IMG/VR virus record: IMGVR_UViG_3300032308_000736
Location: 1-25,407 of that record
DNA from: a virus
Reading direction: 5' to 3' (one strand)
DNA length: 25,407 nucleotides
Both the position numbers and the translations under genes were made by a program. The notes under the pieces were generated by a model, which was given only the letters and a program-made list of their open reading frames with translations, was not told where the DNA came from and made no database searches. Positions 9,112 to 22,357 of the stretch are shown here, in pieces. The stretch's first letter is position 1, and each line of letters starts with the position of its first letter.

Positions 9112-9808
9112 AATAACAATAGTTGTTCCTTGTAAGAACGAGGAAACCTATATCGCACATTTGTTAATGCACCTGCGCCAGCAAGAAATAGGTAATACCA
9201 GAATTATTATCGCTGATTGTTCTACAGACAATACACGAGAAGTCATTAAAATGATGAAAGGTAGCCTGAATGTTGAAGTCATTGAAGGTGGTCCAGTTTC
9301 TATTGCTAAGAACAATGGAGCAAAACTAGTAACAACTCCATATATTCTATTCATTGATGCCGATGTTCGTTTCTTTAACAACAAAGTTATTCGTGATGCA
9401 GTTGATCAATTAGAAACTAATAACTTAGATCTTGTTGGATTATATGCAAAGTGTTATGACGATGACTTTCGTGCACAAATTGGGTTTATGATGTTTAACT
9501 GTATCAACAGAATTATGCAATATAAAGTTCCATTTGCTGTTGGTGCTTTTATGCTAACTCGCAGAGATAGATTTGAAGAGTTGGGTGGCTTTGCTGCAAA
9601 GTATGGAACCAGCGAAGATTTCTTCTTATCTAAACGATACGATGTTAAGAAATTCAAATTGGTGAATCACTATTTTGGACAGGATAGCAGAAGATTCCAG
9701 ATAATGGGATATTTCGGTATGGCATGGTATCTAATAAAGAACTTTTGGAACAGAAATAACGATGCATATTGGAACAAAGTAGACTATTCCAAGTACTGGA
9801 ACCGATAA
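9095..9808 (+). CDS. Family 2 glycosyltransferase
   Basis: A GT-A fold glycosyltransferase (about 237 aa) using a nucleotide sugar. It shows VVPCKNEE near the N-terminus, DCSTDNT, the DxD-type FIDADVRF that binds the metal and sugar nucleotide, the acceptor-side GAFMLTRRDRFEELGGF and a catalytic-type SEDFF. The start is taken at ATG 9095 because GAAAG lies just upstream; an in-frame GTG at 9089 would add two residues. The gene starts inside the 3' end of the LpxH-like gene, so the two are coupled. Transcription probably ends at the terminator at 9841-9866. Modification of LPS or capsule to block superinfection is one inferred role. Confidence 0.88.
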   Translation: MSLQNKITIVVPCKNEETYIAHLLMHLRQQEIGNTRIIIADCSTDNTREVIKMMKGSLNVEVIEGGPVSIAKNNGAKLVTTPYILFIDADVRFFNNKVIRDAVDQLETNNLDLVGLYAKCYDDDFRAQIGFMMFNCINRIMQYKVPFAVGAFMLTRRDRFEELGGFAAKYGTSEDFFLSKRYDVKKFKLVNHYFGQDSRRFQIMGYFGMAWYLIKNFWNRNNDAYWNKVDYSKYWNR

Positions 9809-9827
9809 CCCTACGACTTGTAAGGTT
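9807..9827 (+). repeat. Small hairpin repeat, copy 1
   Basis: Imperfect hairpin starting at the glycosyltransferase stop codon: AACC / C·A mismatch / TAC, loop, GTA / GGTT. The 24-nt segment beginning here matches the one at 18796-18819 in 20 positions, loop excluded. Here it sits just before an intrinsic terminator; the other copy is nested in a longer hairpin. Both lie 30-80 nt upstream of a host-type promoter. Confidence 0.5.
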
Positions 9828-9840
9828 ATTAGCCCTCCTA

Positions 9841-9866
9841 GACCCCTGTAGATACAGGGGTTTTTT
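9841..9866 (+). terminator. Rho-independent terminator
   Basis: CCCCTGT (9843-9849), loop AGAT, ACAGGGG (9854-9860), then six T. A perfect 7-bp GC-rich stem plus a U-run, located after the glycosyltransferase. It ends the upstream transcription unit before the promoter at 9882. Confidence 0.92.
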
Positions 9867-9881
9867 ATTTGCAGAAAGTGC

Positions 9882-9910
9882 TTGTCTTTAAATGCAATAT
9901 ACTGTATAAT
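9882..9910 (+). promoter_or_regulatory. Sigma70-type promoter P1 (leaderless start)
   Basis: TTGTCT (9882-9887), a 17-bp spacer, TATAAT (9905-9910). GTGCTTGTCTTTAA around the -35 is repeated at promoter P3 (13089). The ATG of the next gene begins 7 nt after the -10, at the predicted +1, so the transcript should be leaderless. Confidence 0.85.
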
Positions 9911-9916
9911 AGGTGT

Positions 9917-10189
9917 ATGAAAAATGAAAATACGATTAAAAAGTTTGGTGCTCTTAGTGGTTGGTTAGGAATGGTACTGATTCATGGTGCTACTCTCCCA
10001 ACGACTCTTGGAGTGATTTTAGGTTATTCAAACAATGTTCCACCAGTAAGCATGGTGATTCTTGTTTGGTCTGGTTTGATGTTGTTCTTGTTTAGAGCAA
10101 TCGTGCAAAAAGATACGCTGTATATCGTATCAAATGCAGTCGGTTTCTTCTTCAACAGCATCTTGCTGGCTTTGATAGTTTTTAAATAA
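9917..10189 (+). CDS. Three-TM small membrane protein, SemiSWEET/PQ-loop-like
   Basis: A 90-aa protein with three hydrophobic helices (about 12-33, 40-58 and 66-88). Size, three-helix plan, a Trp-containing second helix (VILVWSGLMLFLF) and an Asn in the third (IVSNAVGFFFN) recall SemiSWEET half-transporters, which work as dimers for small sugars. The diagnostic PQ pair is absent from the first helix (LPTTLG instead), so the assignment is tentative. The ATG at 9917 has no Shine-Dalgarno and lies at the predicted transcription start of P1. An upstream in-frame codon exists but would place the coding region across the promoter, so it is rejected. Confidence 0.7.
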   Translation: MKNENTIKKFGALSGWLGMVLIHGATLPTTLGVILGYSNNVPPVSMVILVWSGLMLFLFRAIVQKDTLYIVSNAVGFFFNSILLALIVFK

Positions 10190-18730: not shown

Positions 18731-18769
18731 AAATAGTTGACTTAAATTCAATTCTGAAGTAAGATTCGT

Positions 18770-18777
18770 TATAAATA
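18770..18777 (+). promoter_or_regulatory. T4-type late promoter box
   Basis: TATAAATA, the exact T4 late promoter consensus, in the gap after rubredoxin. A late transcript would begin about 18784 and immediately form the long hairpin at 18782-18828. It was the only exact non-coding match I found by eye. Confidence 0.5.
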
Positions 18778-18781
18778 GATT

Positions 18782-18828
18782 ACTGTCTGGAACAAAACCC
18801 TACAAGATGTAAGGTTATTCCAGACAGT
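18782..18828 (+). repeat. Long hairpin containing repeat copy 2
   Basis: Outer stem ACTGTCTGGAA (18782-18792) with TTCCAGACAGT (18818-18828), 11 bp perfect. The inner part AACC-C-TACA / loop AGA / TGTA-A-GGTT is the same small hairpin as at 9807-9827. There is no U-run, so it is not a simple terminator. It could be an RNase III site or an mRNA 3'-end stabiliser. The promoter P5 -35 starts 3 nt after it. Confidence 0.7.
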
Positions 18829-18830
18829 GC

Positions 18831-18859
18831 TTGACAAATAATCAAAGGTGTAGTAAAAT
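18831..18859 (+). promoter_or_regulatory. Sigma70-type promoter P5 (leaderless start)
   Basis: TTGACA (18831-18836), 17-bp spacer, TAAAAT (18854-18859). The ATG of the leader peptide starts at 18866, 7 nt after the -10, as at P1 and P2. Confidence 0.82.
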
Positions 18860-18865
18860 TCAATC

Positions 18866-18991
18866 ATGAAATCGAAAATGATATCCAAACAAATGCAAAG
18901 ACATCTCCCGCTATTAAGTGGCTGGACATGCTCACGCACATCATTTGGATATAATGCGATTGAGGATGCCGAGGGTTTGGATAAGAAGTAA
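18866..18991 (+). CDS. 41-aa putative leader peptide before the tRNA array
   Basis: A short frame MKSKMISKQMQRHLPLLSG... ending EDAEGLDKK. It uses 19 of the 20 amino acids (only Val missing), including single Trp, Cys, His, Pro, Phe, Tyr and Asn. Start at the predicted +1 of P5, no Shine-Dalgarno. Its RNA is structured: ATATCCAAA (18881-18889) pairs with TTTGGATAT (18944-18952). GAGGGTTTGG (18971-18980, coding) pairs with CCAAACCCTC (19011-19020), which overlaps the downstream terminator. The stop codon lies in a further hairpin. This suits a translation-sensing attenuator leader. The alternative is a structured small RNA in which the frame is incidental, or an ordinary small gene. Confidence 0.5.
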   Translation: MKSKMISKQMQRHLPLLSGWTCSRTSFGYNAIEDAEGLDKK

Positions 18992-19020
18992 CTGACACCA
19001 GTCTACTTACCCAAACCCTC
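18971..19020 (+). promoter_or_regulatory. Candidate antiterminator structure
   Basis: GAGGGTTTGG (18971-18980) and CCAAACCCTC (19011-19020) form a perfect 10-bp helix. Between them a hairpin forms from AAGTAACTG (18986-18994), loop ACAC, and CAGT-C-TACTT (18999-19008) with one bulged C. The 3' arm shares 19014-19020 with the terminator 5' arm, so the two cannot coexist. A ribosome at the stop codon (18989-18991) would disrupt this helix and allow the terminator. Confidence 0.6.
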
Positions 19021-19046
19021 TGAGATGAAAGTCCAGAGGGTTTTTT
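19014..19046 (+). terminator. Rho-independent terminator (probably regulated)
   Basis: AACCCTCTG (19014-19022), 11-nt loop, CAGAGGGTT (19034-19042), with a six-T run 19041-19046. It lies between the leader peptide and the first tRNA gene, and competes with the 18971-19020 helix. Confidence 0.85.
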
Positions 19047-19059
19047 GTTTTATAGCCAT

Positions 19060-19087
19060 CGTGCTTTAAACATTGTTCTTTTACAAT
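19060..19087 (+). promoter_or_regulatory. Weak candidate middle-type promoter before the tRNA array
   Basis: CGTGCTTTA (19060-19068), 13 nt, TACAAT (19082-19087). The box TGCTTTA and the short spacing recall a T4 MotA-dependent promoter, but no motA gene is in view and the match is short. If active it would start RNA near the first tRNA. Otherwise nothing is seen in 19047-19099. Confidence 0.2.
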
Positions 19088-19099
19088 TCAGGATTCTGT

Positions 19100-19543: not shown

Positions 19544-19632
19544 GGAAGGTTAACCAGACTGGGTCTGGCTCTGTTTTGAAAGCAGAAGGTGTGCGAAAGC
19601 GCATAGAGTTCGATTCTACTATCCTTCCTCCA
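19544..19632 (+). tRNA. tRNA-Ser (TGA)
   Basis: Class II tRNA with long variable arm (GTGTGC-GAAA-GCGCAT). Anticodon stem TCTGT/GCAGA with loop TTTGAAA. Acceptor GGAAGG/CCTTCC, CCA encoded. Confidence 0.94.
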
Positions 19633-20336: not shown

Positions 20337-20365
20337 TTGACTTGCAAGATTATTTGATGTATAAT
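20337..20365 (+). promoter_or_regulatory. Sigma70-type promoter P7 inside the tRNA array
   Basis: TTGACT (20337-20342), 17-bp spacer, TATAAT (20360-20365). Near-copy of P6. The first product would be the structured block 20372-20562. Confidence 0.87.
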
Positions 20366-20371
20366 AGATTA

Positions 20372-20562
20372 TTCAAAAGTCCCTTCTGAGTCTTTGTTGC
20401 GAAACAAAGCATAGGGCAAGTGGCTTGAATGTTGCAACTCGCTTACATTCTCCCACTAGGTTGTTTCAAAACGCAAAGCACGCAGAAATGCAAAACGCTG
20501 AGCAGGAAACATTAAATGACCAGAGGTCAGCCAAGAGTTTGGTAGTTCTCTAAAAACTACCA
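20372..20562 (+). ncRNA. Candidate stable RNA 1 in the tRNA array
   Basis: About 190 nt directly after P7, with no plausible gene but many nested or serial stems. CTTTGTT/AACAAAG (20392-20398 with 20403-20409) closes a GCGA (GNRA) tetraloop, enclosed by CCCT/AGGG (20381, 20413). AGTGG/CCACT (20419, 20453) encloses GAATGT/ACATTC (20427-20432 with 20445-20450). TGTTTC/GAAACA is at 20462-20467 with 20506-20511. TGACC/GGTCA is at 20517-20529. TGGTAGT/ACTACCA (20540-20546 with 20556-20562) ends 4 nt before tRNA-Glu. I match it to no known RNA. T4 also carries stable RNAs of unknown role (C and D) in its tRNA cluster. Confidence 0.6.
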
Positions 20563-20566
20563 CCAT

Positions 20567-20642
20567 GCTCGATTCGTCTATCGGTTAGGACACTGCCCTT
20601 TCACGGCAGGAAGGAGGGGTTCGATTCCCCCATCGAGTACCA
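20567..20642 (+). tRNA. tRNA-Glu (TTC)
   Basis: Acceptor GCTCGAT/ATCGAGT, anticodon stem CTGCC/GGCAG with loop CTTTCAC, T arm GGGG-TTCGATT-CCCC, A73, CCA encoded. Confidence 0.95.
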
Positions 20643-20644
20643 GA

Positions 20645-20873
20645 TTTAATTACATTGGTTACCAATGCCAGTAGGTAGTTTGGGAGTTCAGGATACTTGA
20701 CGGAGTATCGCTCGCTAAACTACATGAACGATGGAAACGAAACCGAAATCAGTAGGTGGATACGGTGGTCACGCTGGAAGAAGTTGGACAGTAATGTGGT
20801 TGACGACCAGTCGCTAGACGATAGCGTGGTTAATCCCGAGTGGGATTGTTGTCAAACACCCAGTGTAATTAAA
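20645..20873 (+). ncRNA. Candidate stable RNA 2 in the tRNA array (closed multi-branch fold)
   Basis: A 229-nt tRNA-free block whose ends pair: TTTAATTACATTGG (20645-20658) with CCAGTGTAATTAAA (20860-20873), 14 bp with one G-T. Inside, GTAGTTT/AAACTAC (20675-20681 with 20717-20723) encloses GATACT/AGTATC (20692-20697 with 20704-20709). TTGAC/GTCAA (20800-20804 with 20851-20855) encloses CGCTA/TAGCG (20812-20816 with 20822-20826) and AATCCC/GGGATT (20832-20837 with 20842-20847). A local CATTGG/CCAATG hairpin (20653-20667) competes with part of the closing helix. A short open frame through it has no homology I recognise and is probably accidental. No known RNA family matched by eye. Confidence 0.68.
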
Positions 20874-20884
20874 TGTGGTAATAT

Positions 20885-20969
20885 GGAGACACGGCACAGT
20901 TGGAGGGGTGCGGCAGACTGTAAATCTGTTCTTTAGGGCTAGTAGGTTCGAATCTTACTGTCTCCACCA
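20885..20969 (+). tRNA. tRNA-Tyr (GTA)
   Basis: Class II-type tRNA as usual for bacterial Tyr. Acceptor GGAGACA/TGTCTCC, anticodon stem GCAGA/TCTGT with loop CTGTAAA, A73, CCA encoded. Confidence 0.94.
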
Positions 20970-21132: not shown

Positions 21133-21370
21133 AACCTGCAGCTAATCACTGCTAGTGTGATCCGCACGAGAGAAACTGATTGACGATCAGTAGGATGGTT
21201 CTCCCTTTGAATAGGGCATGGGTTCATCCATGGGTCTACCTAACCAGCGTTAGCAACACGACAGTTCTATCCGTGGCGAGTGGGTGGAGGGCATGCTTGA
21301 TGGAGAAACTGGTGCGATGTACACAAACCAGAAGTAAACTGATGTGCTATAATTACCACGACGGAGAGAA
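21133..21370 (+). ncRNA. Candidate structured RNA 3 in the tRNA array
   Basis: About 240 nt without tRNA or convincing gene. Hairpins seen: ATCAC/GTGAT (21145-21149 with 21157-21161), ACTGAT-TGACG-ATCAGT (21175-21191), CCCT/AGGG (21203-21206 with 21213-21216), CATGG/CCATG (21217-21221 with 21228-21232) and CTGGT/ACCAG near 21309-21331. The TTGACG hairpin loop also occurs in the 20692-20709 hairpin of block 2. I found no closing helix, so its limits are uncertain. Confidence 0.45.
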
Positions 21371-21634: not shown

Positions 21635-22324
21635 ATGAAACGAATGGCATTATATTTGCATCATCCAGAGTGTTCTGAGGACTGTGCGTATGCTATGGTT
21701 AATGCTCTTTCGTCAAATTACCAGATACGGATATTTAACGAAAGCGAATTAGACGATGATAACTTTTTTGATAGTATCGACATTATTGCTTTTCCTGGTG
21801 GGATTGGTGATTCTGACTCGTATTTCGATTTCTTCAATCGAACAAGAGCGAACAGAGTCGCCGACTTCATATCAAATGGTGGTCACTACCTTGGTATTTG
21901 TATGGGTGCTTATTGGGGTGGAAGTCGTTACTTTGATATACTGGATTCTGTAGATGCTACACAGTATATCAAAAGACCAGAAGCAAAAGTTCGTAGAAGT
22001 TTTGGAACAGTTGCTGAAGTAGAATGGAATGGCTCTAAAGAGCATATGTATTTTTATGATGGTTGTTCATTGATTGGTGATGAAACCAAATTCAAAACAA
22101 TCGCACGATATGCCAATGGTGATCCAATGGCAATCATTCAAGGAAGGATAGGATTGATTGGATGCCATCCAGAAGCACCTTTGTATTGGTATGAGAAACC
22201 ATGGCAATACATAAACAAGCACTGGAACGATGGTAGACATCATAAGTTTTTGTTAGATTTTGTAAATGAATTATGCCCCGATGGTGGAATGGTAGACACG
22301 CTGGTCTTAGAAGCCAGTGCCTAG
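21635..22324 (+). CDS. Class I glutamine amidotransferase-like (BPL_N type) protein; 3' end lies in a tRNA gene
   Basis: A 229-aa protein of the GATase1-like superfamily, best matching the biotin-protein-ligase N-terminal-like (BPL_N) group that occurs in phages. The nucleophile elbow is GGHYLGICMGAYWGG (C89), the oxyanion segment IIAFPGGIGD (about 50-59) and the catalytic His/Glu GCHPEAP (H178, E180). No synthetase domain is attached, so the chemistry is unknown. Residues 214-229 (PDGGMVDTLVLEASA) and the TAG are encoded by the 5' half of tRNA-Leu(TAG), a 50-nt overlap. The natural C-terminus may have been replaced when the tRNA gene arrived. No strong Shine-Dalgarno is visible; it lies 17 nt after tRNA-Pro. 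Confidence 0.82.
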   Translation: MKRMALYLHHPECSEDCAYAMVNALSSNYQIRIFNESELDDDNFFDSIDIIAFPGGIGDSDSYFDFFNRTRANRVADFISNGGHYLGICMGAYWGGSRYFDILDSVDATQYIKRPEAKVRRSFGTVAEVEWNGSKEHMYFYDGCSLIGDETKFKTIARYANGDPMAIIQGRIGLIGCHPEAPLYWYEKPWQYINKHWNDGRHHKFLLDFVNELCPDGGMVDTLVLEASA

Positions 22325-22357
22325 TGCGTGAGAGTTCGAGTCTCTCTTGGGGCACCA
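22275..22357 (+). tRNA. tRNA-Leu (TAG)
   Basis: Class II tRNA. Acceptor GCCCCGA/TTGGGGC, anticodon stem CTGGT/GCCAG with loop CTTAGAA, A73, CCA encoded. Its first 50 nt are also the 3' coding end of the amidotransferase-like gene. Confidence 0.95.

Follow-up and report, generated by a model that had tools for sequence, protein, structure and literature searches.

The tRNA sets of large phages are nearly complete, and the unexplained stable RNAs among phage tRNAs, represented by RNAs C and D of T4 (species 1 and 2 RNA), are to our knowledge an old puzzle with few comparative data. In the T4 genome (NC_000866), the two stable RNAs occupy positions 70908-71046 and 71053-71171 (139 and 119 nt) and form a pair at the 3' end of the tRNA cluster. 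Phages and prophages also harbour ROOL and GOLLD, RNAs of elaborate structure that often lie near tRNA islands and whose function is unexplained (PMC12286853). Moreover, comparative genomics has revealed manA, wcaG, and PhotoRC-II as structured RNAs of T4-like cyanophages (PMC2864571), and Melnitz carries a tmRNA (PMC9004378).

The window, i.e., the whole 25.4-kb IMG/VR phage record analysed here, contains a tRNA cluster of 27 genes by ARAGORN, in which a block at 20645-20873 is flanked by tRNA-Glu(TTC) (20567-20642) and tRNA-Tyr(GTA) (20885-20969), all three on the plus strand. A preliminary description, made from the window sequence, had read this block as a multi-branched RNA, and the homologues reported below, with their covariation, make the case stronger than it had been put. 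The whole RNA, here named RNA C, spans 20640-20878 (~235 nt), from the CCA of tRNA-Glu(UUC), the neighbour with the tightest linkage to it, to the end of its closing helix P1; all its elements given below lie on the plus strand. The covariance model R1 returns 20640-20891 at 212.5 bits, the window itself being part of the R1 training set. On the same strand, a predicted sigma70-like promoter (TTGACT-17-TATAAT, 20337-20365, 11 of 12 consensus matches in silico) lies 5' of a further block, B, of tRNA-Glu, and of RNA C. Block B (20369-20562, between tRNA-Cys and tRNA-Glu) is itself conserved, and its halves are found separately in other phages. In RNAfold, the RNA C block reaches -73.2 kcal/mol, well below the -57.6 +/- 4.5 kcal/mol of its dinucleotide shuffles (n = 200; z = -3.5; 0/200 as low). 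The reverse strand of this self-complementary block also folds below its shuffles (z = -2.8); therefore, folding energy by itself carries little weight, and it is comparison that has to make the case.

The search for homologues started from the amidotransferase-like gene at 21635-22324, whose relatives led to three distinct homologous blocks of 69-74% identity (L005, L006, and L002/L003, which are identical to each other). Once aligned, these blocks share a hairpin with two-sided changes about a constant loop (GATACT..AGTATC, CCAGT..ACTGG, CCTAG..CTAGG). Pattern scans over 2.9 million viral contigs, followed by nhmmer and supplemented with matches of R1, expanded the family to at least 141 loci and at least 98 distinct full-length sequences on IMG/VR phage contigs. 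R1 gives a weaker match of 29 bits at L064 and finds two divergent copies in separate tRNA clusters of the 524-kb phage G031 (524,565 bp, IMGVR_UViG_3300027749_002876; 422462-422707 and 121520-121765). Pairwise identity among the first 46 sequences averages 67%, with a minimum of 44%; in this set, two-sided changes occur at 31 of the 47 pairs from RNAalifold, and 98.8% of the cells are paired versus 29-38% with the partner slid 1-3 columns away. Across 99 sequences and 52 pairs, 97.5% of the cells are paired, and two-sided changes affect 43 pairs and 832 cells, a level reached by none of 500 shuffles (slid columns, 28-38% paired), in an alignment that was fitted to R1 and hence leans to the structure of that model, which lacks helix Pa. 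The scan patterns drew on CCAGTAGGT, GAAAGAYGG, GTCACGCTGGAA, TAATGTG, and GACGR, and in one case on a portion of the 3' strand of P1; the apparent invariance of these stretches is hence partly due to search selection. Conversely, P2, P4, and P6 are in no scan pattern and P1 is in none of those that yielded most copies; in copies retrieved with one pattern, the stretches used in the other patterns are conserved as well, and the copies found by the model are free of the pattern filter. Covariation thus exceeds both chance and the slid controls and identifies RNA C as a conserved structured RNA. The covarying homologues, together with the absence of an Rfam match and of an open frame, strongly support a new family, one of the two options that the preliminary description had considered.

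As predicted from the alignments, P1 closes a junction from which one arm is formed by Pa, Pb, and then P2 and P3, and the other by P4 and then P5 and P6. The closing helix had been described as 14 bp with one G-T pair; the helix stands and is longer than that. Specifically, the main stretch of P1 (20644-20656/20862-20874) has 13 bp with one U-G, and comparison extends it inward by 20657-20658 with 20859-20860/61, which places the 5' strand at 20644-20658 and, in the comparative alignment, the 3' strand at 20859-20874. All 15 outer pairs of P1 show two-sided changes in the 99 sequences. Comparison also extends P1 outward by three base pairs, formed by 20640-20642, the CCA 3' end of tRNA-Glu, and the UGG at 20876-20878; the corresponding column pairs of alignment A3 (1-3/354-356) co-vary, the second being C-G 70 times and U-A 23 times. 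In 67/67 copies that abut a tRNA at their 5' end, the CCA of that tRNA supplies the outermost three bases of the P1 5' strand, paired to the distal UGG; the abutting tRNA is in most cases Glu, followed by Gln, Ile, and Leu. The 19 copies with no abutting 5' tRNA have CTA in the CCA position, paired with UAG. Since the CCA of the abutting tRNA is the outer P1 strand, P1 can hold it in the precursor; if paired as predicted, the same three bases cannot serve the mature tRNA and P1 simultaneously, and P1 may delay or direct the maturation of tRNA-Glu. The P1 duplex has a median of 22 bp and -28 kcal/mol in tRNA arrays versus 14 bp and -13 kcal/mol in free-standing copies, a small contrast in that nine free-standing copies enter it, and this argues for a role of P1 in the release from arrays. 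Most free-standing copies have a weak P1, with the exception of L139, in which a 25-bp P1 accompanies a promoter-like site, indicating that P1 does not serve array release solely.

In the first arm, Pa (CCAA, 20662-20665, with UUGG, 20784-20787) had been overlooked in the preliminary description; absent from R1, it surfaced in a second alignment in the family form CCAAG/CUUGG, with two-sided changes at five of five pairs and 91.9% pairing. Pb (CCAGU, 20668-20672, with GCUGG, 20773-20777) is near-invariant, with A-U turned into G-C in 12 sequences and, as read from the covariance-model alignment, CCGU/ACGG in the two copies of a 524-kb phage. The P2 hairpin (20675-20723) consists of 20675-20682/20716-20723, 20684-20686/20711-20713, and 20692-20697/20704-20709 and co-varies at seven of eight outer and six of six inner pairs (two-sided changes, 99 sequences); its cap, closed by a co-varying pair, is GACG in 82/99 sequences and GCCG in 17/99. 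P3 (GAU, 20730-20732, with GUC, 20768-20770; 20730-20770 overall) encloses a hairpin and is likewise backed by covariation, from G-C to C-G in 18 sequences and from A-U to C-G in 30; CCU/AGG replaces it in L311 and L314, divergent copies that keep the helix through new pairs. The enclosed hairpin bears a GNRA cap in 51 of 89 relatives, the window copy not being among them.

The second arm begins with P4 (UUGAC, 20800-20804, with GUCAA, 20851-20855; 20800-20855 overall), whose alignment is too poor for column counts and which was therefore tested strand-wise: 26 distinct helices occur in 46 sequences, and at least 5 bp form in 96% of the cases versus 52% when strands are swapped between types. 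P5 (CGCUA-GACGA-UAGCG, 20812-20826; stem 20812-20816/20822-20826) shows two-sided changes at four of five pairs and has the loop GACGR in 97/99 sequences. P6 (AAUCCC/GGGAUU, 20832-20837/20842-20847; 20832-20847 overall) is variable and derives from single-sequence folds; in the other subgroup its cap is a loop of 8 nt, for example GUUCAAAA. The three-way junction proposed earlier keeps two of its stems, UUGAC/GUCAA and CGCUA/UAGCG, on compensatory change, while AAUCCC/GGGAUU stays at the level of these variable folds; every stem named earlier is thus borne out, nearly all of them through covariation. Between the arms, the junction element GUAAUGUG (20790-20797) is unpaired and near-invariant, with at least 95% conservation in the 99 sequences; its last seven bases lie within one scan pattern, so that this conservation is in part search selection, and copies from other patterns retain GUAAUGUG. 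A competing hairpin, UUGGUUACCAA, from which two alternative states had been proposed, is present in the window at 20655-20665. However, its halves have better-supported partners elsewhere, since in relatives GG finds its partner in a CC of P1, and CCAA is matched, with covariation, by the UUGG at 20784-20787; the hairpin sequence is thus real, and the switch is not supported. A protein-coding nature of the block was rejected: 3 of 288 frames are open through 48 sequences, and neither the 79-aa ORF at 20697-20936 nor any other frame through the block is kept open across the family, in agreement with its non-coding status.

When the whole window is compared with Rfam 15, the tRNAs alone pass the gathering score. 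The best match to the RNA C block at E values up to 10 scores 14.6 bits versus a threshold of 70, and no family passes over RNA C at six other loci (E up to 1). The likeness to T4 RNAs C and D, of which RNA C had been suggested to be a counterpart, holds by position, as all are small RNAs that a T4-superfamily phage encodes within its tRNA cluster and on the strand of the tRNAs. In contrast, homology to them does not hold, as neither nhmmer nor R1 with default filters finds RNA C in the T4 tRNA cluster; furthermore, the T4 RNAs are shorter and stand at the 3' end of their cluster, while RNA C lies inside the cluster, mostly beside tRNA-Glu. ROOL and GOLLD are much larger (many GOLLD RNAs exceed 800 nt) and differ in fold, and their Rfam models match neither the window, nor the RNA C block, nor the six other loci. 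Judged by these searches, RNA C has no detectable relative in T4 RNA C/D, GOLLD, or ROOL, though it is the same sort of RNA. The manA and wcaG RNAs mostly occupy putative 5' leaders of metabolic genes, unlike RNA C, whose copies sit within tRNA arrays or stand free; no cyanophage motif of the three matches it. The permuted tmRNA (RF04321) resembles RNA C in being structured and present in the same phages and in its excision from a longer precursor, which for RNA C is a prediction; RNA C has no RF04321 match. The literature searched, with most subscription journals and all supplements outside it, holds no description of RNA C, and some catalogue of candidate phage RNAs may include it.

The contigs that bear RNA C reach 331-525 kb at the large end (up to ~0.53 Mb). 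By gp23, the closest phages to one group are Melnitz, HTVC008M, and cyanophages (63%), and those to another are PA5oct and Phosso (65-66%), which places RNA C in two distant lineages of the T4 superfamily, where it has either spread or is old. A blastn search against 50,697 sequenced phages gives no match, and a whole-genome scan of T4, KVP40, PA5oct, Phosso, Melnitz, HTVC008M, S-CREM1, and Atu_ph07 with R1 finds no copy under strict filters that could lose a weak match. On 28 records of uncultured phages, several of which are fragments, R1 gives no match in 19 and a chance-level one in a single record. As for bacterial carriage, no homologue is found among the 117 genome-contig pattern matches listed. 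The permuted tmRNA is present elsewhere in 16/19 of the RNA C-bearing records, as well as in 7/18 uncultured records with no or chance-level RNA C and in Melnitz, HTVC008M, and Phosso; a functional tmRNA-RNA C link was rejected, because a tmRNA that also occurs in relatives with no credible RNA C is a trait of the wider phage group. The permuted tmRNA genes of RNA C-bearing phages include L290:2172-2617 (minus strand) and L391-L396; ANDESYALAA is one example of their tags, and the predicted tag ANANTKGEVAINARGVKIARRAAVLA stands out for its unusual length.

Among the matches listed, 89 of 98 distinct copies reside in tRNA arrays, and all 983 tRNAs within 1.5 kb of RNA C (983/983) are on its strand. 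tRNA-Glu(UUC) lies at most 10 nt away in 74 of these 98 copies; RNA C directly follows it in 53 listed copies and precedes it within 40 nt in 22, and the adjacency may reflect inherited synteny rather than function. The downstream tRNAs vary (Tyr, Glu, Cys, Asp, Asn, Lys, Ala, Gly, Ile, Leu), as expected of a gene and not of a cis element of one neighbour. Nine listed copies are free-standing, with no tRNA within 1.5 kb. A promoter-like sequence (TTGACN-17-TANANT) ends 22-32 nt before the core in five of these nine, judged on consensus alone, versus 2/86 array copies, and the free-standing copies with promoter-like sites of their own argue for a trans-acting RNA gene. In four of these nine copies (L139, L355, L388, and L362), RNA C is separated from the gene that follows by a further promoter-like site. 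In L320, RNA C runs directly into a ribosome-binding site and ATG, an arrangement in which use as a leader is possible.

Other elements accompany RNA C in the arrays. A second structured RNA, C' (~150 nt), which the window lacks, occurs at L006:8661-8809, L002:9061-9211, and 34 further loci; it is closed by a ~17-bp helix, GTATTAGTTTAGTGTTATC/GATAACACTAAACTAATA, with covariation, and often follows RNA C directly but has other places in other arrays. Block D (window 21149-21305, between tRNA-Met and tRNA-Thr) has 26 homologous tRNA-array loci in varying order relative to RNA C; its single-sequence fold is no better than shuffles (z = +0.5), and parts of it co-vary. A GACG tetraloop is seen in RNA C, C', and block D; as block D fails to keep it, the shared loop is not counted as evidence. 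The leader of the tRNA cluster (window 18746-19098) has a promoter-like site, a terminator-like end, and a fold z of -4.1 (18860-19060), and part of it recurs ~100 times over related loci, window 9803-9930 included. A probable tRNA-Ser(UGA) missed by ARAGORN lies at 19544-19628 (sub-threshold tRNA-Sec match, 43 bits), and tRNA-Leu(UAG) (22275-22357) overlaps the 3' end of the amidotransferase-like frame (21635-22324).

Taken as a whole, RNA C is probably an independent, trans-acting non-coding RNA gene of large T4-superfamily phages, released from the array transcript as a stable RNA by P1 and the tRNA nucleases. In the window, it would be transcribed within the tRNA-array precursor; P1 would zip the ends of the block together, the CCA of the preceding tRNA included; RNase P, in trimming the 5' end of the tRNA that follows, together with a nuclease active at or near P1, would then free a stable RNA of ~230-240 nt, whose core would offer the near-invariant unpaired GUAAUGUG and the GMCG and GACGR loops to a partner acted upon in trans. 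Release by tRNA-processing enzymes is plausible, as suggested by the length of P1, by its pairing with the upstream CCA, and by the lower P1 strength in most copies that stand free. From the position among tRNAs, it can tentatively be guessed that the partner belongs to the machinery of translation or of the tRNAs. A more specific and rather unlikely version holds that RNA C is a translation-takeover RNA acting in trans and kept with the phage tRNA set, in which the P1-held CCA of tRNA-Glu couples the two releases and the core binds ribosomes or a tRNA enzyme.

The invariable pairing of the upstream CCA in abutting copies, the tight linkage to tRNA-Glu, and the long P1 in arrays would equally fit a cis element of the array transcript, devoted to processing, spacing, or anti-termination for the neighbouring tRNAs and above all tRNA-Glu. 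Nonetheless, a processing hairpin needs no ~200-nt core with near-invariant junctions, some copies have no nearby tRNA, five of them with a promoter-like site, and the 22 listed copies that precede tRNA-Glu cannot pair P1 to its CCA, so that this reading is improbable, somewhat more so than that of a decoy or antitoxin-like RNA directed against a host defence or an RNA-binding regulator. The latter is unlikely but has precedent in antitoxin-mimicking phage RNAs, as indicated in PMC3475682; free-standing copies could be accessory genes, and several GGA and loop motifs could bind protein. However, conservation of the GGA motifs does not extend from one subgroup to another, so that titration of CsrA is unlikely and was dropped, and a function as Y RNA alongside a phage Ro is unsupported, as the 19 RNA C-bearing phage records contain no TROVE (PF05731)/Ro60 gene, in a test that concerns phage-encoded and not host-encoded Ro. 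That RNA C could be a self-cleaving or RNase P-like ribozyme is suggested by the compact multi-branched fold, the invariant junction bases, and the location in a transcript that requires many cuts, but is hardly credible, given that no RNase P, group I, group II, or small-ribozyme family of Rfam matches the block even at E up to 10, or the six other loci at E up to 1, and that free-standing copies have no nearby tRNA as a substrate. Just as remote is a riboswitch or leader of the downstream gene: the junction conservation is aptamer-like and L320 places RNA C immediately 5' of a ribosome-binding site, yet the downstream gene varies among copies and is most often a tRNA, and the promoter-like sites of L139, L355, L388, and L362 split RNA C from the next gene.

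Phage tRNA arrays hold several further conserved non-tRNA RNAs besides RNA C. The RNA C family offers ~100 natural variants, a well-supported fold, two genomic formats, and two distant T4-superfamily lineages, which together make the expression, the release, and the partner of such an RNA testable.
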